This document shows positions 1,262 to 62,172 of a stretch of 64,000 bases of DNA, one piece after another. Position 1 is the first letter of the stretch. Every line of letters begins with the position of its first letter. Position numbers and translations under genes: made by a program. The notes under the pieces are model-generated. The model worked only from the letters and a program-made list of their open reading frames with translations, was not told where the DNA came from and searched no databases. The DNA is from Ornithinimicrobium sp. F0845. GTDB lineage: Bacteria; Actinomycetota; Actinomycetes; Actinomycetales; Dermatophilaceae. The stretch is taken from positions 124,001 through 188,000 of the forward strand of contig NZ_JALKAL010000005.1 of the NCBI RefSeq assembly GCF_023015765.1. The letters run 5' to 3'.

Positions 1262-4200
1262 CTACTCCTGCGGTGTGGGTGGGGTGGGAGTCGGGTCAGT
1301 CTGTGGCTGAGCGTCCTGCTGTATGCCGTGAGCCGGCCGGTCCTGGGCGCCCGCCTGCGCGTCGGGTCCGGCGGGAGCCGCGTCGGGCACCAGCCAGAGG
1401 ACGCCCAGCGGGGGCAGCATGAGCGTGACGGAGTGCGGCTGACCCTGGTGCGGGTCGTCGGTGGCGGTGACCGACCCCATGTTGCCCACCCCGGACCCGC
1501 CATAGGGGTCGGCGTCGGTGTTGACCAGCTCGCGCCACCGGCCGGGGCGCGGCACGCCGAGCCGGACCTCGCGCGGTGTGCCGGAGAAGTTGGCCGCCGC
1601 CACGAGGACGGGCCGGTCGCCGCCCTCGTCCTGGGTGCCGTAGCGCACGAAGCTGAAGGTGTTGCCGCGCGCGTCGTCGGCGTCCAGCCACTGGAACCCG
1701 GCGCTCTTGTGGTCCAGCTGCCACAGGGCGGGGGTGTCCTGGTAGGCCCGGTTGAGGTCGCGCACCAGGTGCTGCACCCCGACGTGCGCCGGCTGGTCCA
1801 GCAGCCACCAGTCCAGGCTGCGCCCGTCGGCCCACTCCGAGATCTGGGCGAACTCCTGGCCCATGAAGAGTAGCTGCTTGCCGGGGTGGGCCCACATGAA
1901 CGCCAGGTAGGCGCGGAGGCTGGCCAGCTGCTGCCAGCGGTCGTTGCCGCCCATCTTGCGCACCAGCGAGCCCTTGCCGTGGACGACCTCGTCGTGGCTG
2001 ATCGGCAGCACGAACTGCTCGGAGAAGGCATACATGAGCGAGAAGGTCATCTGGTGGTGGTGGTACTGCCGGTGGACCGGCTGTCGCTGGACGTAGTCGA
2101 GCGAGTCGTGCATCCACCCCATGTTCCACTTGAAGCCGAAGCCCAGTCCGCCGGCACTGGTCGAGCGGGTCACCCCCGGCCAGGACGTGGACTCCTCGGC
2201 GATGATGACCACGCCGGGGGCGCGGCGGTAGGCCGTGGCGTTGGTCTCCTGCAGCAGCGCCACCGCCTCGAGGTGCTCGCGGCCGCCGTACTTGTTGGGC
2301 AGCCACTCACCCTCGTTGCGCGAGTAGTCGAGGTAGAGCATGGAGGCCACGCCGTCCACGCGCAGCCCGTCGGCGTGGAACTCCTCCAGCCAGAACAGCG
2401 CGTTGGCGACCAGGAAGTTGCGGACCTCCGGGCGACCGAAGTCGAAGATGTAGGAGCCCCACTCGTTCTGCCAGCCGCGGCGGGGGTCGGGGTGCTCGTA
2501 GAGCGGTGTGCCGTCGAAGCGGGCCAGTGCCCACGGGTCGGTGGCGAAGTGGCCGGGCACCCAGTCCAGGATCACGCCGACCCCGGCCTGGTGCAGCCGG
2601 TCGATGAGGTAGCGCAGGTCGTCGGGGTTGCCGAAGCGGGAGTCGGCCGCGTAGTAGCCGGTCACGTGGTAGCCCCACGAGGGGGCGTAGGGGTGTTGCA
2701 TCACCGGCATCAGCTCGACGTGGGTGAAGCCCATCTCGGTGACATAGCCGGTGAGCTGGTCGGCCAGGTCGCGGTAGGACGCGCCCTGCCGCCAGGAGCC
2801 CAGGTGCACCTCGTAGATGCTCATCGGCCCCTCGTGCGGGTTGCGCTGCGCCCGCCGGGTCATCCAGTCGCCGTCACCCCACTCGTGCCAGCTGTGCGTG
2901 ACGATGGAGGCCGAGCTGGGCGGCACCTCCGCGGCCCGCGCCATCGGGTCGGCCTTGAGCCGTCGGTGACCGTCCGGGCCCGTGATGTCGAACTTGTAGC
3001 GGTTGCCCTCCCACACACCCGGCAGGAAGATCTCCCAGATCCCGCTCTCACCGAGCACCCGCATCGGGTGGGCGGTGTTGTCCCACTGGTTGAAGTCGCC
3101 GACCACGTGGACCCCGCGGGCGTTCGGCGCCCACACCGCGAAGCTGGTGCCGCGCACCTGACCCAGCGGCCCGTCATACTCCCTCAGGTGGGCGCCGAGG
3201 ACCGTCCACAGCTGCTCGTGGCGGCCCTCGCCGATGAGGTGGCGGTCCATCTCGCCCAGCGTGGGGAGGAACCGGTAGGGGTCGTCCTGCTGGTGCCCGA
3301 CGCCGTCGCCCCAGGCCACCTCGAGGCGGTAGTCGGGGATCTCCGTCAGCGGCAGCGCCACCGTCCAGATGCCGTGCGTCTCGTGCCGCATCGGGTGCCG
3401 CTCGCCGCCGGCGAGGAGCACGGTGACGCGCTCGGCCAGCGGGCGCAGCGCCCGGATCGTGATGCCCCCGTCGTGCGGGTGGGCGCCGAGCAGGGAGTGC
3501 GGGTCGCGGTGCAGCCCCCGCATGAGCAGCTCCACCTCGTGCGCGGCGAGCGGTCTCTCCCCAATTTTGAGAGGGGTTTTGTCGCCCTGCCCCGCATTTT
3601 CGTAGTGGTTTTGCTGGTCGGTGGCGTCGGCGTCCGCCGGGGAACCACCGGACTCGGTGGGGCCACCCTCCTCGACAGCTCCCGCGGCCCCAGGCGTCGC
3701 GGCGGTGGCGCCCCTCCCAGCGGCTCCACGACCGGCGGTCGGTGCTGCAGGGGCAGCCTCGGCGGAGGACCCGCTTGCCGGCCGACCCACCAGGGCGCGG
3801 ACCGCGGCGACCGGGATGCCGACCCACGCCGGCCGGTGGCGCGCCTCGTAGACCACCTCGTAGAGCGCCTTGTCCAGCTCGAGCGCGGCCAGCACCGGGT
3901 CGGAGGTGCTCACGTCCTGGCCGGACTGCGCGGCGTACCCCTCCAGGAAGGCGGCGCGGGCCGCCCGGGCCCAGCCGGCCCGGTCCAGGTCGGTGTCCTG
4001 CGCGAGGGAGCCGGCGGCGTAGTCGAAGGAACGCAGCATCCCCGCGACGTCGCGCAGCGCCAGGTCCGGGAGCGTGCGCTCCTCCAGCGGCCGCAGCGGC
4101 TCGCCCTCGAAGTCGACCAGCACCCAGCCGCGCTCGGGCACGTCCAGCACCTGGCCGAGGTGGTAGTCGCCGTGGACCCGCTGCAGGGGCGGCCAGTCGG

Positions 4201-5164
4201 CCTCCGCCGCGGCGGCGAAGACCGAGGTGACCTGCTCGTCATACTCCGACAGGGCAGGCACCTCGGTGAGGGCGTCAGTATGCCGTGCGCGCAGCCGGTC
4301 GAGGATGGCCGCCCGACTGTCCTCGGTCAGGTCCTGGCTCCCGAAGGACTCCCGGAGGGTGGCGTGGACCTCGGCGGTCGCGACCCCCAGCTCCCGGGCG
4401 CGCTCGGTGAAGTCGGTGTCCTCCCGCGCGGCGACGAGGGCGCTGCGCCAGGCGTCCTGGACGCCGGGCAGGAACTCCTGGGCGAAGGCGAGGTGACCGT
4501 GGGCGGTGCTGCCGTCGGTGTGCGGCCAGTCGCCGGTGACCCAGCCGACGGGGCGGGGGACCCGGGTGCTGCCGGCCTCCGCGAGGGCGCTCTGCACGGC
4601 GACGTCGGGGTTCTCTCCCGGGTGGAGCACCCGGAAGACCTTGATGATCACCGGCGCGGACTCACCGGGCTCGCCGGTCTCCACGATGATCGAGGTGTTG
4701 GACTGCTCGCCGACCAGCACCGCCGAGCGGCGCACGACCGGCCGGGGACCCTCCGAGGCCGCGGTGGTGGCGCAGCCGGTCACCCGCGCTCCCTCGCCCT
4801 CCCCGGTCACGGTGCTGCCCGAGTGCATCAGGTCGGCCAGCGCCTGGACGTAGACCGGGTCGTGGCAGCCGTCGTAGATCCAGCGCGTGCCGAGCTCGGA
4901 GTGCTCGGCGGTGGCGACCAGGGCGGTGTGCAGCTCGGGCGCCGGCTCCCCGCGGTAGGTGAGCGGCACGTGGTAGACGACCGGGGCTGGCCCGGACTCG
5001 TCGACCACGATGTGCGTGTCGATGCCGACCTGCCCGTCCGGGTCATCCAGGCGGTAGCCGCCGATCCGCCGCAGCTCCGGCACCCGTCCGCTGCCGGTGA
5101 ACCAGCGCTGGGCGGCGAGCCAGCCGGGCAGGAACTCGGAGAAGGACGGGGTCAGGGTTGCCAT
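1262..5164 (-). CDS. glgB: Maltokinase-glycogen branching enzyme fusion protein (Mak-GlgB)
   Basis: One 1300-residue frame carries two enzymes of the GlgE pathway. Residues ~1-460 are maltokinase (Mak/Pep2), with an N-terminal cap domain and a kinase core holding the [11 protein letters not shown] catalytic loop; it makes maltose-1-phosphate. Residues ~460-535 are an Ala/Gly/Thr-rich linker. Residues ~537-1280 are 1,4-alpha-glucan branching enzyme (GH13_9) with CBM48. The nucleophile Asp is in [10 protein letters not shown] (~931), the acid/base Glu in EESTSWPG (~990) and [10 protein letters not shown] near 1058. Mak and GlgB are normally separate proteins. Here the linker codons around 515-535 coincide with a dispersed 32-bp-period repeat that is otherwise intergenic, so the fusion may have arisen through that element. 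ATG 5164 is 1 nt downstream of the treS stop. A sequencing slip joining two genes is the main alternative. Confidence 0.9.
3555..3614 (-). repeat. 32-bp-period dispersed repeat, locus 1 (inside mak-glgB)
   Basis: Read on the minus strand, a unit beginning AAAACCACTACGAAAA is followed exactly 32 nt later by AAAACCCCTCTCAAAA and a CCCC/GGGG-flanked end. It lies in frame in the Mak-GlgB linker and is translated as QNHYENAG...DKTPLKIGE. The same unit occurs at five other loci in the window (11648, 14236, 19511, 26651, 62121), all intergenic or at a gene end. Confidence 0.8.
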
Positions 5165-5165
5165 G

Positions 5166-9053: not shown

Positions 9054-11642
9054 GTGAAGGCAATCCGCAGACTCCACGTGCGCACCGTTCTCCCGGACGC
9101 ACTGTCCCCGTTGCACGACCTCGCGCTCAATCTGCGCTGGTCGTGGCACCAGCCGACGCTCGACCTGTTCGAGAGCATCGACCCGCAGAAGTGGGAGGCG
9201 GTCCGTCGCGAGCCGCTCGCCATGCTCAGCGCGCTGACCCCCGACGACCTGGCCGCCCTGGCGGGCGACGCCGGCTTCGTCCAGCGGGTCCGCGAGGCGG
9301 GCGAGGGCCTGCAGCGCTACCTGACCGAGCCCCGGTGGTACCAGCGCGAGGCGGAGGCAGGAGCCGCCGCCGGCGGCTTCGGCCAGGCCTACGCCTACTT
9401 CTCGCCCGAGTTCGGGATCACGGCGGCGCTCCCGCAGTACTCCGGAGGCCTCGGCATACTCGCCGGAGACCACCTCAAGAGCGCCTCGGACCTCGGCGTG
9501 CCGATCGTGGGCATCGGCCTGTTCTACAAGAGCGGCTACTTCCGCCAGCGGCTCAACGCCGAGGGGTGGCAGCAGGAGTCCTACCCGGTCCTGGACCCCG
9601 ACGACCAGCCGCTGTCCCTGCTGCGCGAGGAGGACGGGACCCCCGCCGTCGTCTCGCTGGCGATGCCCGGCGACGGCCAGCTGCACGCCCACGTGTGGCG
9701 GGCCCAGGTCGGCCGGGTGCCGCTCCTGCTGCTCGACTCCGACGTGGAGACCAACGAGCCCAGCAAGCGCGATCTGACCGACCGGCTCTACGGCGGTGGC
9801 GGCGACATGCGCCTGCAGCAGGAGATGCTGCTCGGCATCGGTGGCGTGCGGGCACTGCGGCTCTGGTCGCGGCTCACCGGCGCCCCCGCCCCGGACGTCT
9901 ACCACATGAACGAGGGCCACGCCGGCTTCCAGGGGCTGGAGCGGATCAGCGAGCTCACCACCGGGGCGGGGCTGTCCTTCGAGGAGGCACTGCGCGCGGT
10001 GCGCGCCTCGACGGTCTTCACGACGCACACCCCGGTGCCCGCCGGCATCGACCGGTTCGGTGTCAACCAGATCTCCCAGCACTTCGGTGGCGCTGCCGCT
10101 CTGTCCGGCGTGCCGCTGGCCAAGCTCCTCCCGCTCGGTGCGGAGTCCTACGAGGGCGGAGACCCCGGTGTGTTCAACATGGCCGTGATGGGCCTGCGCC
10201 TGGGTCAGCGCGCCAACGGCGTCTCCGTGCTGCACGGCGCCGTGAGCCGCGGCATGTTCCAGGGCCTGTGGCCGGGCTTCGACGAGGACGAGGTGCCGAT
10301 CGGCTCGATCACCAACGGCGTCCACGCCGGGACCTGGGTGGACCGCAAGGTGTTCGACCTGGCCACCGAGTTCATGGGCCCGCACGCCATCGCCGACGGC
10401 ACCGCCTTCTCCAACGTCGAGCAGGTCCCGGTCGACCGGATCTGGGCCACCAAGCGCGAGATGCGTGAGCAACTCGTGGAGGAGACCCGGGCCCGGCTGC
10501 GCAAGTCGATGCGGACCCGCGGCTCGACCTCCGCGGAGTTGGGCTGGATCGATGACGTCCTGGACCCGGACATCCTGACGATCGGCTTCGCACGGCGAGT
10601 TCCGACATACAAGCGACTCACCCTGATGCTCCGCGACCCGGAGCGGCTGAGCAGGATCCTGCTCGATGAGGACCGCCCGGTGCAGCTGGTCATCGCGGGC
10701 AAGGCGCACCCGGCCGATGACACCGGGAAGCGGCTCATCCAGGAGATGGTGAAGTTCACCGACGACCCGAGGCTGCGGCACCGGATCGTCTTCCTGCCCA
10801 ACTACGACATCGCGATGGCGCAGCGGCTCTACCCGGGCTGCGACGTCTGGCTGAACAACCCCCTACGGCCGTTCGAGGCGTGCGGCACCTCCGGCATGAA
10901 GGCCGCGCTCAACGGTGCCCTCAACCTGTCCATCCTGGACGGCTGGTGGGACGAGTGGTTCGACGGCGAGAACGGCTGGGCGATCCCCACGGCCGACGGG
11001 GTCGACGACGACCGCCGTGACGAGCTGGAGGCGGCGGCGCTGTACGACCTGCTGGAGAACAGCGTCGTGCCGACCTTCTACGACACCGACGACGCGGGTC
11101 TGCCCACCCGCTGGCTGGAGATGATCCAGCACACGCTGGGCACGCTCGGGCCGAAGGTGATGGCCGACCGGATGGTGCGGGACTACACGCAGACGCTCTA
11201 CCTCCCGGCGGCTCGGGCTGGGTGGGCCGTGCGGGACAACGACTTCGCCGGGGCCCGTGACCTGGCCGCCCGGGTCGACCGGATCCGTGCCGCGTGGCCG
11301 TCGGTGCGGGTGGACCACGTGGAGGCCGAGGGCGTCAGCGACAGCCCGCAGATCGGCGAGACGGTGCGCGTGCACGCCTACCTCTCGCTCGGGGAGCTGT
11401 CGCCGGAGGAGGTCAAGGTCCAGGTGGCCTTCGGGCGCGCGTCCGAGGCCGACGAGCTGACCGAGGTGGAGACCAGCGTGCTGCGGCACGTGGAGTCCTA
11501 CGACGGTGGCAAGCACCGCTTCGACGGCGAGCTCGAGCTGACCCGCACGGGGTCCCTGGGCTGGACCGTCCGCGTGCTCCCCGCGCACCCGCTGCTGGCC
11601 TCCGATGCCGAGCTCGGCCTCGTCACCAATCCGAAGATGTAG
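9054..11642 (+). CDS. glgP: Alpha-glucan (glycogen/maltodextrin) phosphorylase
   Basis: GT35 phosphorylase of 862 residues that releases glucose-1-phosphate from alpha-1,4-glucan. The pyridoxal-phosphate site is GTSGMKAALNGALNLS, with Lys at about 616; the substrate-loop region HMNEGHAGFQG and TTHTPVPAGIDRF are present, as in the compact actinobacterial/archaeal-type phosphorylases carrying the N-terminal domain that begins AIRRLHVRTVLP. GTG 9054 was chosen over TTG 9045 because a -10 hexamer ends at 9045. Divergent from the GlgE operon; its product glucose-1-phosphate is the substrate of Pgm encoded at the end of that operon. A 32-bp-period repeat begins within 10 nt of the stop. Confidence 0.95.
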   Translation: MKAIRRLHVRTVLPDALSPLHDLALNLRWSWHQPTLDLFESIDPQKWEAVRREPLAMLSALTPDDLAALAGDAGFVQRVREAGEGLQRYLTEPRWYQREAEAGAAAGGFGQAYAYFSPEFGITAALPQYSGGLGILAGDHLKSASDLGVPIVGIGLFYKSGYFRQRLNAEGWQQESYPVLDPDDQPLSLLREEDGTPAVVSLAMPGDGQLHAHVWRAQVGRVPLLLLDSDVETNEPSKRDLTDRLYGGGGDMRLQQEMLLGIGGVRALRLWSRLTGAPAPDVYHMNEGHAGFQGLERISELTTGAGLSFEEALRAVRASTVFTTHTPVPAGIDRFGVNQISQHFGGAAALSGVPLAKLLPLGAESYEGGDPGVFNMAVMGLRLGQRANGVSVLHGAVSRGMFQGLWPGFDEDEVPIGSITNGVHAGTWVDRKVFDLATEFMGPHAIADGTAFSNVEQVPVDRIWATKREMREQLVEETRARLRKSMRTRGSTSAELGWIDDVLDPDILTIGFARRVPTYKRLTLMLRDPERLSRILLDEDRPVQLVIAGKAHPADDTGKRLIQEMVKFTDDPRLRHRIVFLPNYDIAMAQRLYPGCDVWLNNPLRPFEACGTSGMKAALNGALNLSILDGWWDEWFDGENGWAIPTADGVDDDRRDELEAAALYDLLENSVVPTFYDTDDAGLPTRWLEMIQHTLGTLGPKVMADRMVRDYTQTLYLPAARAGWAVRDNDFAGARDLAARVDRIRAAWPSVRVDHVEAEGVSDSPQIGETVRVHAYLSLGELSPEEVKVQVAFGRASEADELTEVETSVLRHVESYDGGKHRFDGELELTRTGSLGWTVRVLPAHPLLASDAELGLVTNPKM

Positions 11643-11647: not shown

Positions 11648-11735
11648 ACCCACAAGAAAGATAGGGGTTTTGCGGTTCGATCCCGCATTTTCGTAGTGGT
11701 TTTGTCGGTCGATCCCGGCTTTTTGCAGGGGTTCT
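11648..11735 (-). repeat. 32-bp-period dispersed repeat, locus 2 (downstream of glgP)
   Basis: Minus-strand units start at 11735, 11703 and 11671, exactly 32 nt apart: AGAACCCCTGCAAAAAG, AAAACCACTACGAAAATG, AAAACCCCTATCTTTC. In the sense direction of glgP two units read as a short GC stem followed by ATTTT or TTTTT (GCGG...CCGC-ATTTT), so a terminator role is possible. The rest of the 11643-11847 interval shows nothing but the ribosome binding site of the next gene. Confidence 0.8.
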
Positions 11736-11847
11736 GCTGACTGTCCTCCACAGGCCCCCGCGACCCGGCCCCGCCCTCAACAGGACCTGCACGCGGTCTG
11801 GCGCGACGGCATACTGGCGCGCAGCCTTGCCCGCAGGAGGTGGTGAG

Positions 11848-14136: not shown

Positions 14137-14235
14137 CCGCGGATCGTGACACGCGTCCGACGAGCCCCGCAGGAGTTGTCCACAGCCCCCGCCGGTCAGG
14201 TCACTCGGGGTCGCAAGACGCGAGGCCGGACCGAC

Positions 14236-14274
14236 AAAACCCCTGCAACAAGCCGGGATCGGCCGGCAAAACCA

Positions 14275-14291
<17 letters not shown>
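14236..14291 (+). repeat. 32-bp-period dispersed repeat, locus 3 (overlaps the glgX stop)
   Basis: Units start at 14236 (AAAACCCCTGCAACAAG) and 14268 (AAAACCACTATGAAAATT), exactly 32 nt apart, ending in a run of G. The glgX stop codon and its last few residues lie within the second unit. In the glgX sense direction the first unit reads GCCGG-N5-CCGGC followed by TTGTT, a small stem-and-T motif. Confidence 0.8.
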
Positions 14292-16413
<2,122 letters not shown>

Positions 16414-16447: not shown

Positions 16448-17041
16448 ATGACCGACCCCACCAGCCTTCCCAACTTCCCGCCGCCGCCCGAGGAGAGCCC
16501 CCTGCGTGGGCGCGTCCTCGACGCGCTCCAGGACCTGCAGCTGCAGCCCGACCTCGACGCCGAGGGCGACATCAAGTTCACCGCGCAGGAGCAGCAGCTC
16601 TTCGTCCGTTCATTGACCGGTGGTCAGGTCGACATCATGCGCGTCTACGGCCAGTGGCAGATCGCCGACAGTGTGCCCACGGACCTGCTGACCCGCCTGA
16701 ACGGCTGCAACGACATCACGCTCGGGGTCAACCTGGTCAAGGCCGGGATCGCCTCGGGCAACCTGGTCCTGAGCGTCGAGCAGGTGATCGCGCCCAAGGA
16801 GAACCCGAAGGCCAAGGTGCAGATCGCGGTCAGCATGATCCTGCAGGCCGTGGCGTTGTGGCACCGCAACGTGACCGCCAAGGCCAAGCGCGAGGCCGAC
16901 ATCGCGGCCGGCGGCACCGGTGACGTCGTCGTCGAGGGCAAGGGCGACGCCTCCGGCGAGCAGCAGAAGGTCGGCCCCTGGCTGTCTGAGGGGACGCGCC
17001 GCAAGCAGGGCGGGACCCCGGACGCCGGCGGTGAGGCATGA
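16448..17041 (+). CDS. YbjN-like domain protein
   Basis: 197-residue soluble protein resembling the YbjN/type-III-chaperone-like family of actinobacteria: VLDALQDLQLQPDLDAEGDI, then a predicted alpha/beta core ending with LVKAGIASGNLVLSVEQV, and a charged, probably disordered Gly-rich C-tail (last ~45 residues). A peptide-binding chaperone-like role has been suggested for the fold; the specific job here is unknown. The stop overlaps the start of the enoyl-CoA hydratase gene (ATGA), so the two are co-translated. Confidence 0.6.
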   Translation: MTDPTSLPNFPPPPEESPLRGRVLDALQDLQLQPDLDAEGDIKFTAQEQQLFVRSLTGGQVDIMRVYGQWQIADSVPTDLLTRLNGCNDITLGVNLVKAGIASGNLVLSVEQVIAPKENPKAKVQIAVSMILQAVALWHRNVTAKAKREADIAAGGTGDVVVEGKGDASGEQQKVGPWLSEGTRRKQGGTPDAGGEA

Positions 17042-17844
17042 GCGAGCCGCGCACGGTCGCGACCTCGACCGAGCACGTCCGCGTCGAGATCGAGGCCGGG
17101 ATCGCCACGATCCGGATCGACCGGCCGAAGATGAACCCCCTCGACATCGCCGTCCAGGACGCCCTGGGCGAGGCCGCCGGGATCGTCTCGGCCGACGCCG
17201 AGGTCCGCGCGGTGATCATCTACGGCGGGGAGAAGGTCTTCGCCGCCGGCGCGGACATCAAGGAGATGGAGACCATGTCCTACACCGACATGGTCGACCG
17301 GGCCGCCGTGATCCAGGAGTGCTTCCGCGCCGTCGCGCACATCCCGAAGCCGGTCATTGCCGCGATCACCGGCTACGCCCTGGGCGCCGGCTGCGAGCTG
17401 GCGATGTGCGCCGACTTCCGCGTCGCCGGCAGCGACGCCAGGCTCGGCCAGCCCGAGATCCTGCTCGGCGTCATCCCCGGCGCCGGCGGCTCCCAGCGCC
17501 TGCCCCGTCTGGTCGGACCGGCCAAGGCCAAGGACCTGATCTTCAGCGGCCGGATGGTCGAGGCCGAGGAGGCCCTGGCGATCGGTCTCGTTGATGAGGT
17601 GGTCGAGCCGGACCAGGTGTATGCCGCAGCCCGAGCCCGCGCCGAGCGCTACGTCAGTGGTGCGCCCTACGCCCTGCGGGCGGCCAAGGAGGCCGTCGAC
17701 CGCGGCATCGAGACCGACCTGGACACGGGCCTGGCCATCGAGGCGATGCTGTTCGCCGGGGTCTTCGCCACGGAGGACCGCCAGATCGGCATGACCTCGT
17801 TCGTGCAGGACGGCCCCGGCAAGGCCAAGTTCACCGGCAAATAA
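17038..17844 (+). CDS. Enoyl-CoA hydratase/isomerase family protein
   Basis: Crotonase-fold protein of 268 residues, probably hydrating 2-trans-enoyl-CoA in beta-oxidation. The oxyanion-hole signature (AAGADIKEM, ~75) and both catalytic glutamates are present: GCELAMCADF (Glu 120) and GQPEILLGVIPGAGGSQRLPR (Glu 140). Length is normal for the family. Translationally coupled to the upstream YbjN-like gene by ATGA. The electron-transfer flavoprotein genes 3 kb downstream would support fatty-acid oxidation, but no linkage is shown. Substrate cannot be inferred. Confidence 0.9.
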   Translation: MSEPRTVATSTEHVRVEIEAGIATIRIDRPKMNPLDIAVQDALGEAAGIVSADAEVRAVIIYGGEKVFAAGADIKEMETMSYTDMVDRAAVIQECFRAVAHIPKPVIAAITGYALGAGCELAMCADFRVAGSDARLGQPEILLGVIPGAGGSQRLPRLVGPAKAKDLIFSGRMVEAEEALAIGLVDEVVEPDQVYAAARARAERYVSGAPYALRAAKEAVDRGIETDLDTGLAIEAMLFAGVFATEDRQIGMTSFVQDGPGKAKFTGK

Positions 17845-17848: not shown

Positions 17849-17976
17849 CGACCGAGCGCGAGGTATTGCGGTCCAGAAGGTCACCGAACGCACCGCGTGG
17901 CGAACGGTGCGCGGTCCGCGGTCGGGACCAGACGGCATAGTGCCCGGCAGGGAGCGCCACCCCGTGCGCTCGGTCG
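17849..17976. repeat. Long-range 11-bp inverted repeat between convergent genes
   Basis: CGACCGAGCGC (17849-17859) and its exact complement GCGCTCGGTCG (17966-17976) bracket the whole gap between the enoyl-CoA hydratase and the LLM oxidoreductase stops. Between them GCACCGCG/CGGTGCG segments could pair as inner stems. It may act as a bidirectional terminator. Confidence 0.45.
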
Positions 17977-19008
17977 CTAGGGGGCCAGCAGCTCTCGGAC
18001 GCGCGGGCCGACCTGCTCGGCATACAGCCGGATGCACTCCATCCGTTGCTCGTGCGGGAGGTGGCCCATGCTGTATTTGAGCTGGAAGCGGGAGAGCCCG
18101 AGGAGCCGCGCGGTGTCGGCGATCTTGCGGGCCACGGTCTCGGGGGATCCGACGTAGGCAGCGCCGTCCGGACCGAGCTGCTCCAGCGCCCGCACCTCGT
18201 CCATCGGCGCCCAGCCGCGCTCGCGGCCGAGGCGGTTCATGTACTCGACGAACGGGCCGAGGTACTCCTCCCGGGCCTGCTCGTCGGTCGCGGCGACGTG
18301 CCCGGGGGAGTGCACCCCGAGCGGCTGCTCTGGCTGCTCCGCCTGCACGAGGGCCCGCCGGTAGAGGTCGACGAGCGGCGCGAACTGCCTGGCTGGCCCG
18401 CCGATGATCGCGACCACGACGGGCAGGCCGTAGGCCGCGGCCCGGACCATGGACTGCGGGGTCCCGCCGACCGCCACCCAGGTCGGGATCCGGCCGCCCT
18501 CGGTGCCGGGCATGACCTGGTCTACCTGCAGCGGCGGTCGGATGGTGCCCTCCCACAGCACAGGCTGTTCGGTCAGCAGGTGTGCGAGCAGGTCGAGCTT
18601 CTCGGAGAACAGCACCTCGTAGTCCTCCAGGGCGAAGCCGAACAGCGGGAAGGACTCGATGAACGAGCCGCGGCCGACGGTGACCTCAGCGCGACCGCTG
18701 GAGAGGGCGTCGAGGGTCGAGAAGCGTTCGAAGACGCGCACCGGGTCGTCGGAGCTGAGGACCGTGACGGAGGTGCCCAGCCGGATCCGCTCGGTTGTGG
18801 AGGCGAGGGCGGCCAGCACCGTGTCCGGTGCCGAGATCGCGTAGTCGGGCCGGTGGTGCTCGCCGATGCCGAAGAAGTCGAGGCCGAGCTGGTCGGCCAG
18901 CTGCCCCTCGGCCAGCACCTCCCGCACGACCTGCGCCGGGTGCAAGGGCTCGCCGTCCGGGCCGTTCGCGATGTCGCCGAAGGTGTCCAGGCCCAGTTCG
19001 AGACTCAT
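17977..19008 (-). CDS. LLM-class flavin-dependent oxidoreductase
   Basis: Luciferase-like TIM-barrel protein of 343 residues: SLELGLDTFGDI at the N-terminus, GIGEHHRPDYAISAP (~50), TVLSSDDPVRVFERF and GRGSFIESFPLFG, and GTPQSMVRAAAYGLPVV toward the C-terminus. Members use FMN or F420; substrate is unknown. ATG 19008 is chosen because TACGAT precedes it by 6 nt (leaderless); the longer frame from 19041 would include the promoter. Convergent with the enoyl-CoA hydratase gene. Confidence 0.88.
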   Translation of the reverse strand: MSLELGLDTFGDIANGPDGEPLHPAQVVREVLAEGQLADQLGLDFFGIGEHHRPDYAISAPDTVLAALASTTERIRLGTSVTVLSSDDPVRVFERFSTLDALSSGRAEVTVGRGSFIESFPLFGFALEDYEVLFSEKLDLLAHLLTEQPVLWEGTIRPPLQVDQVMPGTEGGRIPTWVAVGGTPQSMVRAAAYGLPVVVAIIGGPARQFAPLVDLYRRALVQAEQPEQPLGVHSPGHVAATDEQAREEYLGPFVEYMNRLGRERGWAPMDEVRALEQLGPDGAAYVGSPETVARKIADTARLLGLSRFQLKYSMGHLPHEQRMECIRLYAEQVGPRVRELLAP

Positions 19009-19014
19009 CGCCTC

Positions 19015-19020
19015 ATCGTA
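19015..19020 (-). promoter_or_regulatory. -10 hexamer of the LLM oxidoreductase gene
   Basis: TACGAT on the minus strand, 6 nt upstream of ATG 19008; a leaderless configuration. Confidence 0.55.
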
Positions 19021-19047
19021 GGAGGGCGCAGGGCCGGGCATCGTGTG

Positions 19048-19404
19048 TCAGGACAGCGTCCACACCCCCAGCTCGTTGCCGCTGGGGTCGGCGAAGTGGA
19101 ACCGTCTCCCGCCCGGGAACGCATACGGCGCCTGGATGATCCGACCCCCGGCTCCTTCCACGGCGGCCACGCTCGCATCGAGGTCCTCGGAGTAGAGCAG
19201 GACGAACGGACCGCCAGGACCTGGTTGCCCCGCAGGGTTGAGGCCGCCGGCCTCGTCCTCGCGCCCGACTGTGCGGAAGCCGGCATAGCCGGGGCCGTAG
19301 TCGGTGAACGTCCACCCGAAGGCCTGCCCATAGAAGTCCTTGGCGGTGGCCAGGTCCGCGACGTTGATCTCGATGTAGTCGATCGCATGGTGTGTCGATG
19401 CCAT
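19048..19404 (-). CDS. VOC (glyoxalase/bleomycin-resistance-like) family protein
   Basis: 118-residue single-domain vicinal-oxygen-chelate protein. It shows the typical IDYIEINVADLATAKDFYGQ opening, YGPGYAGF in the middle, and the C-terminal GGRRFHFADPSGNELGVW strand in which His and Glu act as metal ligands in related proteins. ATG 19404 is supported by TACCGT 6 nt upstream (leaderless); a longer frame to 19632 runs through the repeats and is not credible. Same strand as, and just upstream of, the LLM oxidoreductase. Substrate unknown. Confidence 0.85.
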   Translation of the reverse strand: MASTHHAIDYIEINVADLATAKDFYGQAFGWTFTDYGPGYAGFRTVGREDEAGGLNPAGQPGPGGPFVLLYSEDLDASVAAVEGAGGRIIQAPYAFPGGRRFHFADPSGNELGVWTLS

Positions 19405-19410
19405 GAGCGG

Positions 19411-19416
19411 ACGGTA
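19411..19416 (-). promoter_or_regulatory. -10 hexamer of VOC gene
   Basis: TACCGT on the minus strand followed by 6 nt and ATG 19404. Confidence 0.55.
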
Positions 19417-19510
19417 TGACGTAGGTCCGACACTGGGCGTCGTCCGGCGGTCTGTGGTCCTGTTCGGCGGATGGCGGGGTTCAAGGTGCCACTCGCCGAA
19501 AGCGGTCAAC

Positions 19511-19599
19511 AAAACCACTACGAAAATGGTGGACGGACCTGCAAAACCACTACGAAAAGACGGGGCGGGGGTGCAAAACCCCTGAACTTTTGTGGGGGC
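19511..19599 (+). repeat. 32-bp-period dispersed repeat, locus 4 (three units)
   Basis: Units begin at 19511, 19543 and 19575. The first two read AAAACCACTACGAAAA and the last is AAAACCCCTGAACTTTTG followed by a G run. The period is exactly 32. Located between the divergent VOC and padR genes, upstream of the padR operator. Confidence 0.85.
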
Positions 19600-19612
19600 T
19601 AGTTGACGTGCC

Positions 19613-19639
19613 TGACTAGTTAGTGACACCATCTAGTCA
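19613..19639. promoter_or_regulatory. Candidate PadR operator
   Basis: TGACTAG (19613-19619) and CTAGTCA (19633-19639) form a perfect 7-bp inverted repeat with centres 20 bp apart, two helical turns, as expected for a dimeric winged-helix repressor. The right half touches the padR start codon, and TTGACG at 19603 could be a -35 element. Autoregulation by the downstream PadR is inferred. Confidence 0.6.
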
Positions 19640-19992
19640 TGAACCCGGAACAGGAGTGGCCCAGCGAGTGGCTGCGGGGGGTGCTGAGCGTGTGCACGCT
19701 GCGGATCCTGCGCGACGGCCCGACCTACGGCTACGCCATCGCCTCCAGGCTCACGGAGGCCGGGCTGGGCAGCGTCAAGGGCGGCACGCTCTATCCCCTG
19801 CTCGGGCGGCTCGAGGAGGCGGGCTGGGTCGAGGTGGAGTGGCGGCCCGGGGAGGGCGGGCCGGGCCGCAAGTTCTATGCACTGACCGCCGAGGGCCTGG
19901 CCGAGGCCGAGCGCCAGGCGACCCGCTGGGCCGCGTTCACCAACACCACCCGGGCACTTACCGACCACATCGTCTCGAAGGGACGGGCATGA
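19639..19992 (+). CDS. PadR family transcriptional regulator
   Basis: 117-residue winged-helix repressor. WLRGVLSVCTLRILRDGPTYGYAIAS is the N-terminal helix-turn-helix entry, GSVKGGTLYPLLGRLEEAGWV the recognition helix and wing, and EGGPGRKFYALTAEG the second wing strand; the short C-terminal helix makes it a PadR-s2 (small) type. Its stop overlaps the next gene (ATGA), the usual arrangement of a PadR regulator with a HAAS-domain membrane protein that it controls. The 7-bp inverted repeat at the start codon is its likely operator. Confidence 0.9.
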   Translation: MNPEQEWPSEWLRGVLSVCTLRILRDGPTYGYAIASRLTEAGLGSVKGGTLYPLLGRLEEAGWVEVEWRPGEGGPGRKFYALTAEGLAEAERQATRWAAFTNTTRALTDHIVSKGRA

Positions 19993-26535: not shown

Positions 26536-26650
26536 GCTACCGCGCCCCTGGGTGCACAGGTCGCCCGGAGGCAACCGCTCCGCCCGGACGCAACCGCCGC
26601 GGGGGCCAAGCTTCCCGCGGGCACGCGGGAGACAAAGAGGGCAGGCGGGC

Positions 26651-26705
26651 AAAACGTCCCCAAGAATGCGCGGGAGGCGGGCAAACCTCCCCAAAATTTG
26701 TGGGG
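26651..26705 (+). repeat. 32-bp-period dispersed repeat, locus 5 (CTCCCCAA variant)
   Basis: AAAACGTCCCCAAGAATGCG at 26651 and AAACCTCCCCAAAATTTG at 26683, exactly 32 nt apart and ending in GTGGGG. Upstream (26563-26600) a ~19-bp unit, GCCCGGAnGCAACCGC, occurs twice in tandem. The locus lies between the receiver gene and the cysteine desulfurase gene. Confidence 0.75.
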
Positions 26706-26731: not shown

Positions 26732-27934
26732 GTGCCCGACGCCCCCACCTACCTCGACCACGCCGCGACCACGGCCGTCCTGCCGGAGGTCATCGAGACC
26801 GTCACCGAGCACATGCGCCAGCTCGGCAACCCGAGCTCGCTGCACGGTGCCGGGCGCGACGCACGGCGGGTCGTCGAGGAGTCCCGCGAGTCGATCGCCA
26901 GCGACCTGGGGGTGCGGCCGTCGGAGGTGATCTTCACCTCCGGGGGCACCGAGTCGGACAACATGGCGGTCAAGGGCACCTGGTTCCACAACTACGAGAA
27001 CGAGACCGGTCGTAACGTCCTCGTCGTCAGCGCGATCGAGCACCACGCCGTCCTCGACGCGGTCGAGCACCTGGTGCTGGAGCACGACGCCGAGGTCGCC
27101 TGGCTGGAGCCGGACAGCGCTGGCCGCATCCGCCCCGAGACCCTGCAGAAGGCGCTCGACGAGCACGGTGACCGGGCCGCGCTGGTCAGCGTGATGTGGG
27201 CCAACAACGAGGTCGGCACGGTGCAGCCGGTCGAGGAGCTCGCCGGCCTGGCCCGCGAGCACGGCGTGCCCTTCCACACCGACGCAGTGCAGGCGCTGGG
27301 GCAGGTGCCGCTGCCGCTCGGGGAGGTCGGTGCCGACCTCGTGGCGCTGACCGGCCACAAGATCGGCGGCCCGATGGGGGTGGGTCTGCTGGTCGCCGGG
27401 CGCGACCAGACGCCGGTGCCGCTCACGCACGGTGGGGGCCAGGAGCGCCAGCTGCGCAGCGGCACGCTGGACACGCCCGCCATCGCCGGGCTCGCGGTCG
27501 CCGTGCGCCGCGCGGTCAGCGAGCAGGAGCTGCACGCCAAGACGATGATCCAGCTGCGTGACCGGCTGATCCAGGGAGCTCTCGACCTGGACCCCACGAT
27601 CCAGGTGAGCGGCCCGTGGGAGCCGGGTGACGGCATACTGCGGCTGCCGGCCAACGCCCACCTGCGCGTGCCCGGCTGCGACGGGGACTCCCTGCTCTAC
27701 CTGCTCGACGCGGCCGGCGTGCAGTGCTCGACCGGGTCCGCGTGCCAGGCCGGGGTGCCGCAGCCCAGCCACGTGCTGCTCGCGATGGGGGTCGAGGAGG
27801 ACGCCGCCCGTGGCTCGCTGCGCCTGACCCTCGGCCGCACCTCCACCGACGCCGACGTGGACGCCTTCCTCGCGGCCTTGCCCGGCGCCGTCGACCGGGC
27901 GCGCCGTGCCAGGGGCGTCAGCCGGGGAGCATGA
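26732..27934 (+). CDS. Cysteine desulfurase (NifS/IscS family)
   Basis: 400-residue class V aminotransferase-fold PLP enzyme that transfers sulfur from cysteine to acceptor proteins. Motifs are [63 protein letters not shown] (PLP Lys 210) and [10 protein letters not shown] with catalytic Cys 338. GTG 26732 has GATGAT 6 nt upstream, a plausible leaderless start. ATGA overlap with mnmA indicates that this is the sulfur donor for tRNA 2-thiouridylation; whether it also serves Fe-S assembly cannot be told. Confidence 0.95.
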
Positions 27935-41610: not shown

Positions 41611-41642
41611 TCAGGGTGCACCTGTCCAGGGGACGTGACACT

Positions 41643-41802
41643 GGTGCATGTCCTGCACCGGCCCAGGCTGGTGCGTGTCCTGCACCAGCCCCAGGCCCGG
41701 GTGCGTGTCCTGCACCGGCCCCCACGGTGGTGCGTGTCCTGCACCAGTCCCGGGCCCGGTGTGTGTCCTGCACCGGCCTAGGCTCGGTGCGTCACGTGCA
41801 CC
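41643..41802. repeat. Array of six 17-bp palindromic repeats
   Basis: GGTGCGTGTCCTGCACC or close variants at 41643, 41670, 41700, 41729, 41758 and 41786 (start-to-start 27-30 bp). Each has 5-bp arms GGTGC/GCACC around GTGTCCT; the sixth has a different core (GTCACGT). Spacers of 10-13 bp are GC-rich and mutually similar (GGCCCAGGCT, AGCCCCAGGCCC). The array fills the gap between convergent ligA and the DUF488 gene, ending 4 nt before the latter's stop codon. Function unknown; a protein-binding array or multi-hairpin terminator are possible. Confidence 0.85.
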
Positions 41803-41806
41803 GATG

Positions 41807-57189: not shown

Positions 57190-57261
57190 CGTCTTCGAGC
57201 GCCTCGGTGATCCTCAGGCTGGCTGCAGTCGGCCCGAAGAACGCGAGGGCGCTCGAAGACG
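57190..57261. repeat. Dispersed ~70-bp hairpin element, copy 2
   Basis: CGTCTTCGAGCGCC (57190-57203) and GGCGCTCGAAGACG (57248-57261): perfect 14-bp arms and a 44-nt loop, matching copy 1 at 29145-29212. It lies between the convergent ilvE and GyrI-like genes. Four copies of C/TCGGCCCCACCG-type 12-13-mers (57139-57331) surround it; the rest of the 215-bp gap shows nothing else. Confidence 0.75.
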
Positions 57262-57351
57262 TCGGGCGGGCGCTGGTTGTCGGTGTCGCCGGCCCACCGA
57301 GCGCGTCGTGTCGGGGCTGTCGGCCCCACCGGGCGTGTGGGGCTGCGGCTG

Positions 57352-57966
57352 TCAGATCGGCCGCACGGGCTGGCGCAGGACGGTCCGCAGCTTCTCCGGT
57401 GCCACGCGCCGGGGATCGCTGAGGTAGATCTCGTGGTGGGGTCCGTTGAATGTCACGCCAGCCTCCGGCATCACCTCCTGATGCAGCCGCGCGAGCGTCG
57501 GACCCTCGTCGTCATAGCTGCCCACGTGCATGATCTGCAGGCAGCGACCCTCGTCCAGCACGAGCAGCCGGACGCTGCCGACCGGCAACTCCGGCTTCTT
57601 ACGGGCGGCCGAGGCCAGACCCGAGTCGACGTCATCCGTCGTCACGACGTCGGGGAGCGGGATCAGCATCGTCCAGTCCCACTCGCCCTTGCGACGCGCG
57701 GTGAAGGAGGTCGGGTCCTCACTCGTCCACAGACCCTCGAGCGGCCCGACCACGAAGTCCTCACCGGTGCGGGCGCGCAGGGCGAACTTCACGGCATACG
57801 AGATGGCAAAGAGCGCGGCCACGGCGTCGGCGTAGTCCCGTGACGTGTTGGGGTCGCCGTGCCCGTCGATCGCGAGGTAGCTGCGCGGCGGCAAGTGCAC
57901 CTCGACGAACTCTGCCGAGCCGGGTTGGTAGAAGTCCTTCAGGTCCTTCTTGAGGTCGATCTTCAC
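57352..57966 (-). CDS. GyrI-like small-molecule-binding domain protein
   Basis: 204 residues: IDLKKDLKDFYQPGSAEFVEV, then PRSYLAIDGHGDPNTSRDYADAV and ALFAISYAVKFALR, GLWTSEDPTSFTARRKGEWDWTMLIPLPDVV, and HVGSYDDEGPTLARLH near the end: the GyrI-like/SOUL-type ligand-binding fold of DUF2174-like proteins. No DNA-binding domain. GTG 57966 with GAGGAGG 5-6 nt upstream. Could bind or hydrolyse small toxic compounds; the ligand is unknown. Confidence 0.85.
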   Translation of the reverse strand: MKIDLKKDLKDFYQPGSAEFVEVHLPPRSYLAIDGHGDPNTSRDYADAVAALFAISYAVKFALRARTGEDFVVGPLEGLWTSEDPTSFTARRKGEWDWTMLIPLPDVVTTDDVDSGLASAARKKPELPVGSVRLLVLDEGRCLQIMHVGSYDDEGPTLARLHQEVMPEAGVTFNGPHHEIYLSDPRRVAPEKLRTVLRQPVRPI

Positions 57967-58011
57967 TGCGCCTCCTCATCGTCACCAGTGGTCCCTTGCG
58001 CGGGCAGGGCC

Positions 58012-58017
58012 TAGCGT
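58012..58017 (+). promoter_or_regulatory. -10 hexamer of VOC gene
   Basis: TAGCGT followed by 7 nt and ATG 58025; leaderless. Confidence 0.6.
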
Positions 58018-58024
58018 CTGGGCC

Positions 58025-58456
58025 ATGATCACCGCGATCCACAACCTGGTGTACTCCGACGATCCCACGGCCACGCGTGCGTTCTTCAAGGACGTGCTCC
58101 GCTGGCCGTTCGTCTCCGAGGGTGCTCGGGGCGATGCCGCGGTCGGTGGCCAGGGGACCGGAGGGAGCGACCCGGCCGAGTGGCTGATCTTCGGCACCGG
58201 CCGCAGCGAGCTGGGGGTTCACCCCACCTCGGAGGTCCACGAGGGCAGGGAGTGGAGCGCTCCGCGGCACCACGCGATCGCCATCATGTGCGACGACATG
58301 GAGGCCACCGTCGCCGAGCTGGCCGGGCGCGGGGCAGAGTTCTCCGGCGAGGTCCAGGACATGGGCTTCGGCCGGGGCACCATGCTCAAGGTGCCCGGCG
58401 CCGACGACATGCTCCTCTACGAGGCACGCCACGCGAAGGCCTACGACCTCACCTGA
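58025..58456 (+). CDS. VOC family protein
   Basis: 143-residue glyoxalase-fold protein: AIHNLVYSDDPTATRAFFKDVLRW at the N-terminus, HHAIAIMCDDMEATVAELAGRGA in the middle and GRGTMLKVPGADDMLLYEAR at the C-terminal strand with the usual metal-ligand Glu. Divergent from the GyrI-like gene. Substrate unknown. Confidence 0.88.
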   Translation: MITAIHNLVYSDDPTATRAFFKDVLRWPFVSEGARGDAAVGGQGTGGSDPAEWLIFGTGRSELGVHPTSEVHEGREWSAPRHHAIAIMCDDMEATVAELAGRGAEFSGEVQDMGFGRGTMLKVPGADDMLLYEARHAKAYDLT

Positions 58457-58471
58457 CGCGAACGAGTCACC

Positions 58472-58738
58472 TCAGCCGCCAGAGGGCTCGCGGATCAGGT
58501 CAAGGTCGACCCCCACCCGGCGTGGCACATACCGGAAGCCTTCGTGGGTGCCAGGGTCGTAGTCGACCACGGCACCGCGGTGCTGCAGGCTGCGTTTCCA
58601 GCCGGTCACGCGCTCGATGTCGATGGTGCGCAACTGCTCGCCAGCACGACGCCTCGCCTCGACCCGCAGCATCGCCAGCGGATACTCCCACCCGTGCTGG
58701 TCCCGGACCTCCCACGGGATCAGGTCACCTTCTGTCAT
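58472..58738 (-). CDS. Hypothetical protein (88 aa)
   Basis: Small soluble protein starting MTEGDLIPWEVRDQHGWEYP with a charged helix (MLRVEARRRAGEQLRTIDI), then ERVTGWKRSLQHRGAVVDYDP and YVPRRVGVDLDLIREP. GAGGAG lies 4-5 nt before ATG 58738, supporting this start within a much longer open frame. No family recognised. The short DNA-binding-like basic helix is only suggestive. Confidence 0.6.
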   Translation of the reverse strand: MTEGDLIPWEVRDQHGWEYPLAMLRVEARRRAGEQLRTIDIERVTGWKRSLQHRGAVVDYDPGTHEGFRYVPRRVGVDLDLIREPSGG

Positions 58739-58842
58739 CGCACTCCTCTCTGCCTCCACCGACGGTGCGGACGCTAGAGGTGAGCACTGACACCGAGACA
58801 CCGCCGTCGCCGAGCAGGCGCCAGACGGAGCCCCGACGAGAG

Positions 58843-60213: not shown

Positions 60214-60219
60214 CCGGTC

Positions 60220-60225
60220 ACGTTA
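60220..60225 (-). promoter_or_regulatory. -10 hexamer of amidohydrolase gene
   Basis: TAACGT on the minus strand, 6 nt before ATG 60213; same hexamer as the YbjN-like gene. Confidence 0.6.
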
Positions 60226-60381
60226 CCAGTGCACCCACCCGGCCCCACGACATACTGCGGGAGTATGCCGTGAGCCAGGTGCGCGCACGCCGGTGCGGAG
60301 CCGTGACCCAGCCGGGGAACTCGCGGTGACCCCGGGGCGGCCGGTTACAGTTTCGGCTGTCGCTCACAGAGGAGAATTGTC

Positions 60382-62034
60382 TTGGCCACCGTCTCTGCCC
60401 ACGTCGCCGCCACGCTCACCCGGCACATCAGCCAGGTCTTCGGGGTAATGGGCAACGGCAACGCCCACTTCCTCAACGAGCTGGAGCGGACCACCGACGC
60501 CGTCTACACCGCGGTGCGGCACGAGGCTGGCGCGGTGGTGGCCGCCGACGCCTGTTATCGCGCCGGGGGCGGGCTGGCCGCGGCGACCACGACCTACGGT
60601 GCGGGCTTCACCAACACCCTCACCTCGCTCGCGGAGGCCGCCCAGGCGCGCGTGCCGCTGATCCTGGTCACCGGCGAGGCGCCGCGGTGGGGTCGCCGGC
60701 CCTGGGACGTCGACCAGCTCGCGCTGGCCAGCGGCGTGGGGGTGCGCACCTTCACCGTGGGCCGCACCGACTCGGCCGCCACCACGATGCTCGCCATCGA
60801 GCACGCGCTGTCCTATTCGCTGCCGGCGGTCCTGGCCATCCCCTATGACGTCGCCGGCCTGGACGTCGGGGACATCCCGCAGCCGCCGGACCCGATGGTG
60901 CCGCCGCCCGTGCCGCCCACCGGCGACCTGGCGGCCGGGAAGGTGGCGCAGATCGCCCGCGCCCTCGCCGAGGCCGAGCGGCCGGTGCTGCTCGCCGGCC
61001 GCGGCGCGTGGCTGGCCGGGGCCGCCGAGGACCTGGGGGCGCTCGCCGCCGCCACCGGTGCGGTCACCGCGAGCACCGCGCTGGCCCGCGGGATCTTCCC
61101 CGAGCAGGAGTATGACGTGGGCGTCGCCGGCGGCTTCGGTGCCGACGGTGCGATGGAGCTGGTGCACCAGGCGGACGTCGCAGTCGTCTTCGGTGCGTCG
61201 CTCAACCAGTTCACGATGCGCTTCGGTGAGCTGTTCTCGCCGAGCGCCCGGGTGATCCAGATCGACCTGTCCAACGTGGCGACCCATCCGCAGGTCGGGG
61301 ACTACCTGCACGCCGACGCCGCGCTCGCTGCCCGGGCGATCCTTCAGGAGCTGACGGCCCTCGGGGCGGAGAGCAGCGGGTGGCGCGAGAGCGTGGACAT
61401 CGCCGCGCTGCGTGAGTATGACGTGGGCACGGGCCAGGCCTCCGACGGCCGGCTGGACCCTCGCTCGACCGCGCGGCGGATCGCCGAGCTGCTGCCCGAG
61501 GACCGGGTCGTGGTCTCCGACGGTGGCCACTTCATCGCGTGGGCCAACATGTACTGGCCCGTCGCCGCACCGGACCGGATGCTGATGATCGGCACCGCCT
61601 ACCAGGCCATCGGGCAGGGTTTCCCCTCCGTGGCCGGGGCGGCCCGCGCCAAGCCGGACTCGACGGTCGTGCTGACCACCGGCGACGGCGGAGGACTGAT
61701 GGCGCTCGCGGACCTGGAGACCGCGGTGCGCGTCGCCGGGGGTCGCGGGCTGGCGGTCGTGTGGAACGACCGCGCCTACGGCGCCGAGATCCACCTCTAC
61801 GGCCGCAAGGGCTTTGCCCGTGAGCCGATGCTGATCGACGAGGTGGACTTCGCCGGCCTCGCCCGGGCGGTGGGCGCCGAGGGCGTCGTCGTGCGCACCC
61901 TGGACGACCTCGCGGCCCTCGCGGTATGGACGCAGCGCCCGGTCGCTGATCGGCCCTTCCTCCTCCTGGACCTGCGGATCAGCGGCGAGGTGATGGCGCC
62001 CTACCAGCGCGAGGTCATCCGCGTCAACGCGTAG
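60382..62034 (+). CDS. Thiamine-diphosphate-binding enzyme (acetolactate synthase-like)
   Basis: 550 residues with the three ThDP-enzyme domains: N-terminal PYR (FGVMGNGNAHFLNEL, catalytic Glu 48 in VRHEAGAVVAAD, TTTYGAGFTNTLTSLAEAAQ), the central domain (PVLLAGRGAWLAGA) and C-terminal PP with the GDGGGLMALADLETAV...VVWNDRAYG cofactor motif. Related to ALS, benzoylformate decarboxylase and similar enzymes; no FAD or small-subunit partner is near, so it is probably catabolic. TTG start with GAGGAG 7-8 nt upstream. Convergent with an aromatic-ring monooxygenase. Confidence 0.9.
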   Translation: MATVSAHVAATLTRHISQVFGVMGNGNAHFLNELERTTDAVYTAVRHEAGAVVAADACYRAGGGLAAATTTYGAGFTNTLTSLAEAAQARVPLILVTGEAPRWGRRPWDVDQLALASGVGVRTFTVGRTDSAATTMLAIEHALSYSLPAVLAIPYDVAGLDVGDIPQPPDPMVPPPVPPTGDLAAGKVAQIARALAEAERPVLLAGRGAWLAGAAEDLGALAAATGAVTASTALARGIFPEQEYDVGVAGGFGADGAMELVHQADVAVVFGASLNQFTMRFGELFSPSARVIQIDLSNVATHPQVGDYLHADAALAARAILQELTALGAESSGWRESVDIAALREYDVGTGQASDGRLDPRSTARRIAELLPEDRVVVSDGGHFIAWANMYWPVAAPDRMLMIGTAYQAIGQGFPSVAGAARAKPDSTVVLTTGDGGGLMALADLETAVRVAGGRGLAVVWNDRAYGAEIHLYGRKGFAREPMLIDEVDFAGLARAVGAEGVVVRTLDDLAALAVWTQRPVADRPFLLLDLRISGEVMAPYQREVIRVNA

Positions 62035-62120
62035 GGCCGCCAGGAGCCTCGGCCCGCACCCGACCACCTCGTGGGGAGCCTGCGGGTCGGCCACGACGCT
62101 GCGTGCACGCAGCGGCTTAC

Positions 62121-62172
62121 CGAATCTCCCCAAGAATGGGTCGGGGGCGTCCAAAACCTCCCCAAGATTGCG
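62121..62172 (+). repeat. 32-bp-period dispersed repeat, locus 6 (CTCCCCAAG variant)
   Basis: CGAATCTCCCCAAGAATGGG at 62121 and AAAACCTCCCCAAGATTGCG at 62153, exactly 32 nt apart. The last unit abuts the stop codon of the FAD monooxygenase gene at 62173. Confidence 0.75.

Follow-up and report, generated by a model that had tools for sequence, protein, structure and literature searches.

The window analysed here, a 64-kb stretch of the Ornithinimicrobium sp. F0845 genome (contig NZ_JALKAL010000005.1, positions 124,001 to 188,000), includes genes for a fused maltokinase-GlgB protein, a phosphorylase, a PadR-family protein and a class-V aminotransferase. Short repeats lie beside these and other genes and, in one case, inside an ORF (Table 1). 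The initial annotation had described a dispersed repeat with an exact 32-bp period at six loci. Units were present at all six, and their spacing was 32 bp at five of them; at the remaining locus (26651) it was 31 bp. Three units each were found at 11648-11735 and 19511-19599, and the locus at 3555-3614 was inside the minus-strand ORF 1262-5164, between its maltokinase and GlgB parts. Over the whole window, lag 32 gave 7 events, whereas lags that are not multiples of 3 averaged 0.75. Five of these corresponded to loci already annotated (the one at 14236 fell below the threshold of this count), one was an additional pair at 57289 and one was in coding DNA (21483). Single units at 17851 and 17943 adjoined the ends of convergent genes (17844 and 17977, respectively). 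No Rfam family matched the window at the gathering score.

Table 1. Repeat arrays and single repeat units in the window (F3, unit family defined in the text)
Feature	Position	Strand	Units and context
Array 1	3555..3619	-	Two units, A-rich strand minus; linker of fused maltokinase-GlgB ORF 1262-5164 (minus)
Array 2	11648..11742	-	Three units; just past stop of phosphorylase gene 9078-11642 (+)
Array 3	14229..14291	+	Two units; called end of gene 14275-16386 (minus) is a TAG within the last unit
Array 4	19504..19599	+	Three units; upstream of PadR-family gene 19639-19992 (+)
Array 5	26644..26705	+	Two units 31 bp apart; upstream of class-V aminotransferase gene 26732-27934 (+)
Array 6	62114..62172	+	Two units; abuts stop of gene 62173-63999 (minus)
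Single F3-like unit	17851..17882	+	7 bp past end of gene 17038-17844 (+)
Single F3 unit	17943..17974	-	Directly past end of gene 17977-19041 (minus)
F3-like pair, period 32	57289..57352	+	Between convergent genes; missed by the initial annotation

We derived a profile of the unit from the window's own genome (G000; 4,198,449 bases, 59 contigs). Read on the A-rich strand, the unit is GRCSNRC-AAAACCNCTNCRAAAA-TGCGKGNN. Single core positions carried up to 2.5 bits of information, and positions 23-32 only 0.06-0.36 bits. About 16 conserved and about 16 variable bases had been proposed; the unit is longer than 16 bp, with GRCSNRC preceding the core and TGCGKG following it. The last unit of an array mostly had TTGG at its end in place of TGCG. 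Two sequence types had been recognized; this number was too low, as at least three unit families were present (F1, F2 and F3, assigned by eye). F1 comprised core types ACTACG and CCTGCG, mostly with a GACCAGC-like edge, and F2 had core type CTCCCC, mostly with a GTAC edge; mutual information linked core type to edge. Units of both families were direct repeats at 32 bp. F3 (ACCGRGCGC-N8-GCGCTC) had the same period and contained a short inverted repeat. Most arrays consisted of 2-4 units and their ends were sharp. We looked for decaying units outside the arrays and saw none, and an origin of the left/right asymmetry described below from decaying units left of the arrays was rejected on this ground.

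The repeat proved to be far more abundant than six loci. The sequence AAAACCACTACGAAAA had 28 exact copies in G000 and 74 copies with at most 2 mismatches, and its reversed control had none. The pair pattern AAAACCNC-N24-AAAACCNC gave 83 matches with at most 1 mismatch (15 for the reversed control) and 105 with at most 2 (79 for the reversed control); the CTCCCCAAAA type of the family itself fits this control, which is therefore not a clean one. Periodicity was analyzed in segments totalling 377,399 of the 4,198,449 bases. In their intergenic DNA, lag 32 accounted for 70 events, lags 31 and 64 for 10 each and all others for no more than 6, although the segments were chosen because they contain matches and the count is not a genome-wide rate. 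A profile scan of the same 377,399 bases yielded 86 clusters. Among 134 gaps between profile matches, 97 were 32 bp, 13 were 31 bp and 5 had other lengths; the remaining 19 were units matched twice with a one-base offset. When the clusters were masked, lag 32 still ranked first in intergenic DNA (7 events, with 6 for the next lag and a mean of 1.2). The reported dispersed 32-bp repeat was thus confirmed, and its excess and periodicity extend beyond the loci on which the report was based.

The arrays had a defined position relative to genes. In G000, 74 of the 86 clusters were intergenic, and the counts that follow leave out the rest, of which 9 fell within ORF calls, 2 had a single strong unit and 1 lacked a neighbour in the sampled DNA. 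The distance to the next gene had a median of 4 bp at the right end of the array and 78.5 bp at the left end (p 9e-8); genes were called with a simple custom caller, whose errors these distances carry. The right end met a gene end in 44 of the 74 arrays and a gene start in 30. When a gene ran into the right end, its edge was no more than 20 bp away in 42 of 44 cases, and often the gene ended directly past TTGG or at the TAG of the core. The corresponding figures in three relatives were 13/15, 8/8 and 13/14 (34/37 altogether), based on 21 to 31 clusters each and omitting 2 edge and 2 internal clusters in G023, 4 internal ones in G006 and 1 in G015. Gene ends facing the left end were this close in only 9 of 44 cases in G000 and 12 of 38 in the three relatives, and genes starting at the right end in 14 of 30 in G000. 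Between tandem genes the two orientations of the array were equally frequent in G000 (19:19), and the ratios in the three relatives were 9:8, 8:5 and 2:5. Such random orientation argues that DNA, not RNA, is read. We also inspected the starts of 70 proteins beside right ends by eye, and no mutual relatedness was evident. In relative G008, arrays occurred at the same maltokinase-GlgB junction within an open frame of 1305 codons.

A scan of 84,980 species, from which records very close to G000 were possibly left out, detected the exact F1/F2 pattern in one MAG. The pattern was absent from the viral contigs searched, and a phage origin was rejected accordingly. Among 24 genomes of the genus, the pair pattern was abundant in G000 (83), G006 (30), G015 (27) and G023 (100) and occurred 0-5 times in the rest; the reversed control was also high in some of them (G008 30, G019 38, G006 26, G000 15) because the family itself matches it, and the pattern hides other unit types in relatives. 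F3 was distributed differently, with 222 matches in G023, 27 in G010, 11 in G000, 9 in G006, 6 in G019 and no more than 2 in each other of 43 genomes. In contrast to sequence, the period was shared: 49/52, 19/28 and 21/24 of the listed unit gaps in three relatives were 32 bp.

The end of the phosphorylase gene provided an example. Of 17 relatives, judged by eye, 9 had a 32-bp array at this place (G001, G006, G008, G010, G015, G016, G017, G019 and G023), and 8 had none (G003, G005, G009, G013, G014, G022, G038 and G042). In longer syntenic DNA from 8 relatives, a lag-32 array was present at the phosphorylase end in 7 and absent in G013. The units differed in sequence: GAGACCTYTAT- in G010, GGTCCGAACCTCCCCAAGAA- in G008 and GTTGCNAGGGAGT- in G016, with G015 and G006 nearer to F1 and G017 and G001 more distant. 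For subsets of species, 32-bp arrays with differing units were also observed at 14275, at 19404-19639 and before 26732; at the last site only a single degenerate unit was present in G015 and none in G013, G016, G001 and G017. At the same gene ends, several relatives had arrays that differed in sequence and agreed in period and orientation. In 20-40 kb samples from seven other families of the order, 0-1 lag-32 events were found in each, as expected by chance.

We then compared orthologous sites in G000 and its closest relative, G023 (loci L047-L068, from MAG AS06rmzACSIP_198, which was taken as G023). The comparison used 23 right flanks of 40, of which 17 were matched and 16 readable. Judged by eye, an array of the same kind was in place at 7 of the 16 sites, 2 had an array of another type, 3 had an F3 array (one at a contig end) and 4 had none. 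Flanking genes of the two genomes were about 80-98% identical. None of the 16 could be read as a clean empty site bearing a target duplication, and at one site the array of G006 was opposite in orientation to those of G000 and G023. Occupancy and orientation were thus kept at several orthologous sites despite changes in unit sequence. Substitutions were counted at 8 orthologous sites, which supplied 17 unit pairs, with last units included to position 20 only; these were the sites with readable pairs rather than a random sample. The ten invariant core positions had changed in 16 of 170 comparisons, and the spacer and edge in 40 of 159 (p 0.0002). The constrained invariant core and a spacer that is freer in sequence than in length resemble phased binding sites. 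In contrast, core positions that determine the type had changed in 27 of 102 comparisons, as fast as the spacer.

Arrays within a genome were related to different degrees. In G000, no near-identical pairs of F1/F2 arrays were detected, the best pair being 92% alike over 59 bp. F1 arrays nevertheless formed 161 pairs above 80% similarity, compared with 33 expected from independent columns, while the excess for F2 was within that of shuffles (45 pairs; mean 31, maximum 51). Two unlinked F3 arrays in G023 were 96% alike over 55 bp. An old or slow spread would fit both the relatedness of the arrays and the absence of near-identical ones in G000.

These data establish the 32-bp period, a core that changes more slowly than its drifting spacer, a directional right end, the persistence of occupancy and orientation at several orthologous sites while units change in sequence, the existence of at least three unit families and the lack of a consistent RNA-fold signal. 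The initial annotation had offered either a protein-binding ladder or a mobile or amplified element, and each part of this alternative gained evidence. Fixed spacing, drifting spacer, slower core, lack of a consistent RNA structure (see below) and the same period in relatives speak for the ladder; unequal copy number of subfamilies in close relatives, random orientation between tandem genes, apparently unrelated neighbours and in-place swaps of type speak for the mobile element. Our first-ranked explanation, which we hold tentatively, combines both: the arrays may be short interspersed gene-boundary elements made of phased sites for putative DNA-binding proteins and slowly spreading. The sites are separated by whole helical turns and their core is more constrained than the spacer, as expected of a phased protein-site array, and ladders of near-constant 32-bp spacing whose rungs differ between species hint at a putative reading protein. 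Each unit would be one site of a sequence-specific DNA-binding protein, and 32 bp, about three helical turns, would place neighbouring protomers on one face of the helix and allow joint binding. Several paralogous or fast-diverging proteins might read the different unit families. The bound row would then act as a gene-boundary element, most plausibly by terminating transcription, or insulating it, where the row adjoins a gene end; such a role is suggested by how closely the arrays abut gene ends and, weakly, by a shortage of hairpins at those ends. Arrays would enlarge through unit duplication and spread slowly. Several points speak against parts of this proposal. A block bound right past a stop codon would be expected to stall RNA polymerase before the gene end, a 19:19 orientation does not suit a polar terminator, and the core positions that set the type are no slower to change than the spacer. 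Furthermore, unequal copy numbers and relatedness among arrays would also suit selfish spread. No candidate trans factor stood out by eye beside the longest F3 arrays.

Second in rank, and possible though somewhat doubtful, is a mobile family comparable to REP, REPIN or MIRU, non-autonomous and purely selfish, in which the units would be sites of a putative transposase or recombinase without host function, TTGG the joined end and the gene edge the target. The surplus of F3 in G023 over G000, the restriction of abundant F1-type pairs to 4 of 24 genus genomes, the inverted array of G006, the 4 empty sites and 5 sites of other type in G023, and the two similar F3 arrays of G023 are all consistent with it, as are the arrays within ORFs, whose A-rich strand was the sense strand in 7 of 9. 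However, near-identical F1/F2 arrays were not found in G000, nor clean empty sites with a target duplication among the 16 readable sites, the core is constrained relative to the spacer between orthologues, and the Y1 (RAYT-type) transposase (PF01797), the one family searched for, was present in 0 of 27 genus genomes while being detected in 5 of 14 control genomes.

Known repeats resemble the arrays in part. Among dispersed bacterial repeats, those studied best are palindromic and associated with a known transposase. MIRUs are tandem direct repeats at gene junctions that can be translated with the neighbouring gene; their units are longer and oriented with transcription, and they insert at overlapping stop and start codons. 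The arrays share with them the tandem direct repeats and the placement at gene edges, but MIRUs follow transcription, whereas arrays here lie at random in either orientation when the neighbouring genes are in tandem, and their unit differs in sequence from one species to another. In pneumococci, BOX elements are intergenic and modular, with a variable number of middle units; they combine three different modules and form RNA stem-loops, whereas each element here has one unit type and no consistent fold. NrdR boxes and TnsB sites are repeated sites at whole helical turns that mark few loci or transposon ends; the arrays are likewise phased, but occupy many gene edges with a motif that changes between species. 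REP and REPIN sequences, as described in PMC3116915, are short, mostly extragenic and species-specific, with many copies, several sequence groups per genome and doublets as the unit. The likeness to REP/BIME and REPIN-RAYT systems in size, extragenic position, copy number, several groups per genome and species specificity is evident. However, REPs are palindromic and REPINs combine two of them in inverted order, whereas F1 and F2 are direct repeats at a fixed 32 bp that fold no better than shuffled sequences; F3 has a short inverted repeat, yet also occurs in direct arrays. Membership in REPIN-RAYT was rejected because of the direct units and the lack of a Y1 transposase in the 27 genomes. The initial annotation knew of no named family of this form, and our literature search, which covered one open library and few subscription papers, likewise found no described counterpart of a 32-bp gene-boundary family of direct repeats.

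We consider it improbable that the arrays are operators through which a transcription factor controls an ordinary regulon. Two arrays of the window are upstream of gene starts (19511 and 26651), the TTGG in front of 26732 could pass for a -35 hexamer, and TANNNT at a spacing of 20-28 occurred 3 times on the start side, compared with 0.6 expected from the following stretch, and not at all on the stop side. With only these 3 TANNNT at the right spacing among 30 start-side sites, the promoter reading of TTGG was rejected. The predominance of gene ends over gene starts at the right end and the apparently unrelated neighbouring proteins also argue against a regulon.

Even less probable are tandem RNA hairpin terminators, with each unit forming a small stem followed by UUUU. 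Right ends abut stop codons as terminators would, F3 has its inverted repeat, and matching changes in both arms were seen at one site between G000 and G006. In one test, internal units of G000 folded about 3 SD better on the T-rich strand than with swapped arms, and internal units of G015 gave z 2.6-2.8. However, other sets were null or opposite (last units of G000, z -2.2), so that arm pairing, with z from -2.2 to 2.8 across sets, was not consistently better than in swapped arms. Mean folding z on the T-rich strand was -0.15 for F1 and -0.49 for F2, no better than shuffled, and random orientation between tandem genes also disagrees with a terminator. A stable RNA hairpin followed by a U run, as in intrinsic terminators, was not found, apart from weak partial signals in some sets, and a consistent RNA hairpin was rejected after mutual information, swap and folding tests. 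Gene ends touched by the right end lacked the hairpin excess of element-free gene ends (mean z -0.19 and about -1.05, respectively), which speaks for the boundary role proposed above; the deficit is weak, with p 0.03 when the element was included, p 0.34 beyond the element and p 0.12 against left-facing gene ends. That the arrays replace terminators was rejected as well, since the raw difference (p 3e-5 to 5e-3) was mostly base composition, as judged by the test against own shuffles (p 0.03 and 0.34). Finally, tandem duplication through slippage or chance is hardly credible: spacers of neighbours within an array were 78% alike (18 pairs) compared with 61% for spacers at large, but slippage would produce many lengths instead of the single dominant lag, and copy counts show one motif recurring at many loci.

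Returning to rows of sites for DNA-binding proteins, a further possibility, which we regard as rather unlikely, is a boundary system conserved in geometry and not in sequence, in which ladder, orientation and place at the coding edge are kept while the motif is replaced. If true, this would imply a bacterial family of DNA-binding proteins that occupies gene ends throughout the genome and changes its specificity as quickly as the factors of selfish elements do. In these arrays, direct repeats retain an exact helical period although their sequence is replaced from one close species to the next, and one end is placed at gene ends. If a protein reads them, they would represent a new way of marking gene ends in high-GC bacteria, or else a new class of long-lived selfish DNA.

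One array of the 32-bp family lies inside a reading frame: the maltokinase cap domain and the GlgB domains are united in a single open frame of the window, and the repeats constitute the translated linker between the two parts. Arrays at the equivalent maltokinase/GlgB junction, within an open frame, were also detected in G008, a genome of the same genus.

Coordinates of the features discussed
Feature	Genome or stretch	Position	Strand
Maltokinase-GlgB frame	window	1262-5164	minus
Single F3 units	window	17851-17974	
CTAGTTGAC...TGACTAG	window	19598-19640	
Further tandem repeat	window	41641-41803	
AAAACCCCGACCGAGCGCGTGGGCGCCYGGTC repeats	G019, L046	~1470-1680	
CTGCCAGAACTCTTGA-like repeat	G006, L189	site matching C56:161776	
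F3 dimer row	G023, L263	2342-2504	

Five near-perfect 32-bp repeats in G019, flanked by convergent genes, combine AAAACC with a stretch resembling F3, the third unit type (ACCGRGCGC-N8-GCGCTC, period 32). The G006 repeat, located downstream of a gene end, is of a distinct type, with a period (~16 bp) half of the usual 32 bp. No lag-32 array was found across 40 kb of G013 (L173, L174), even though G013, G006 and G015 are about equally close to the window in their genes; a pair of F3-like matches at 32-bp distance was present outside these 40 kb.

The sequence upstream of the PadR-family gene, also present before this gene in G006, G010 and G015, may act as the operator of that gene. The further tandem repeat (periods 29, 59 and 86) is unrelated to the 32-bp family.

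The two single F3 units of the window face each other, each directly 3' of one of two convergent genes. In G023, the closest relative, two F3 units form a dimer of 65 bp (32 + 33) that is repeated in tandem, a mark left by unequal exchange among units.
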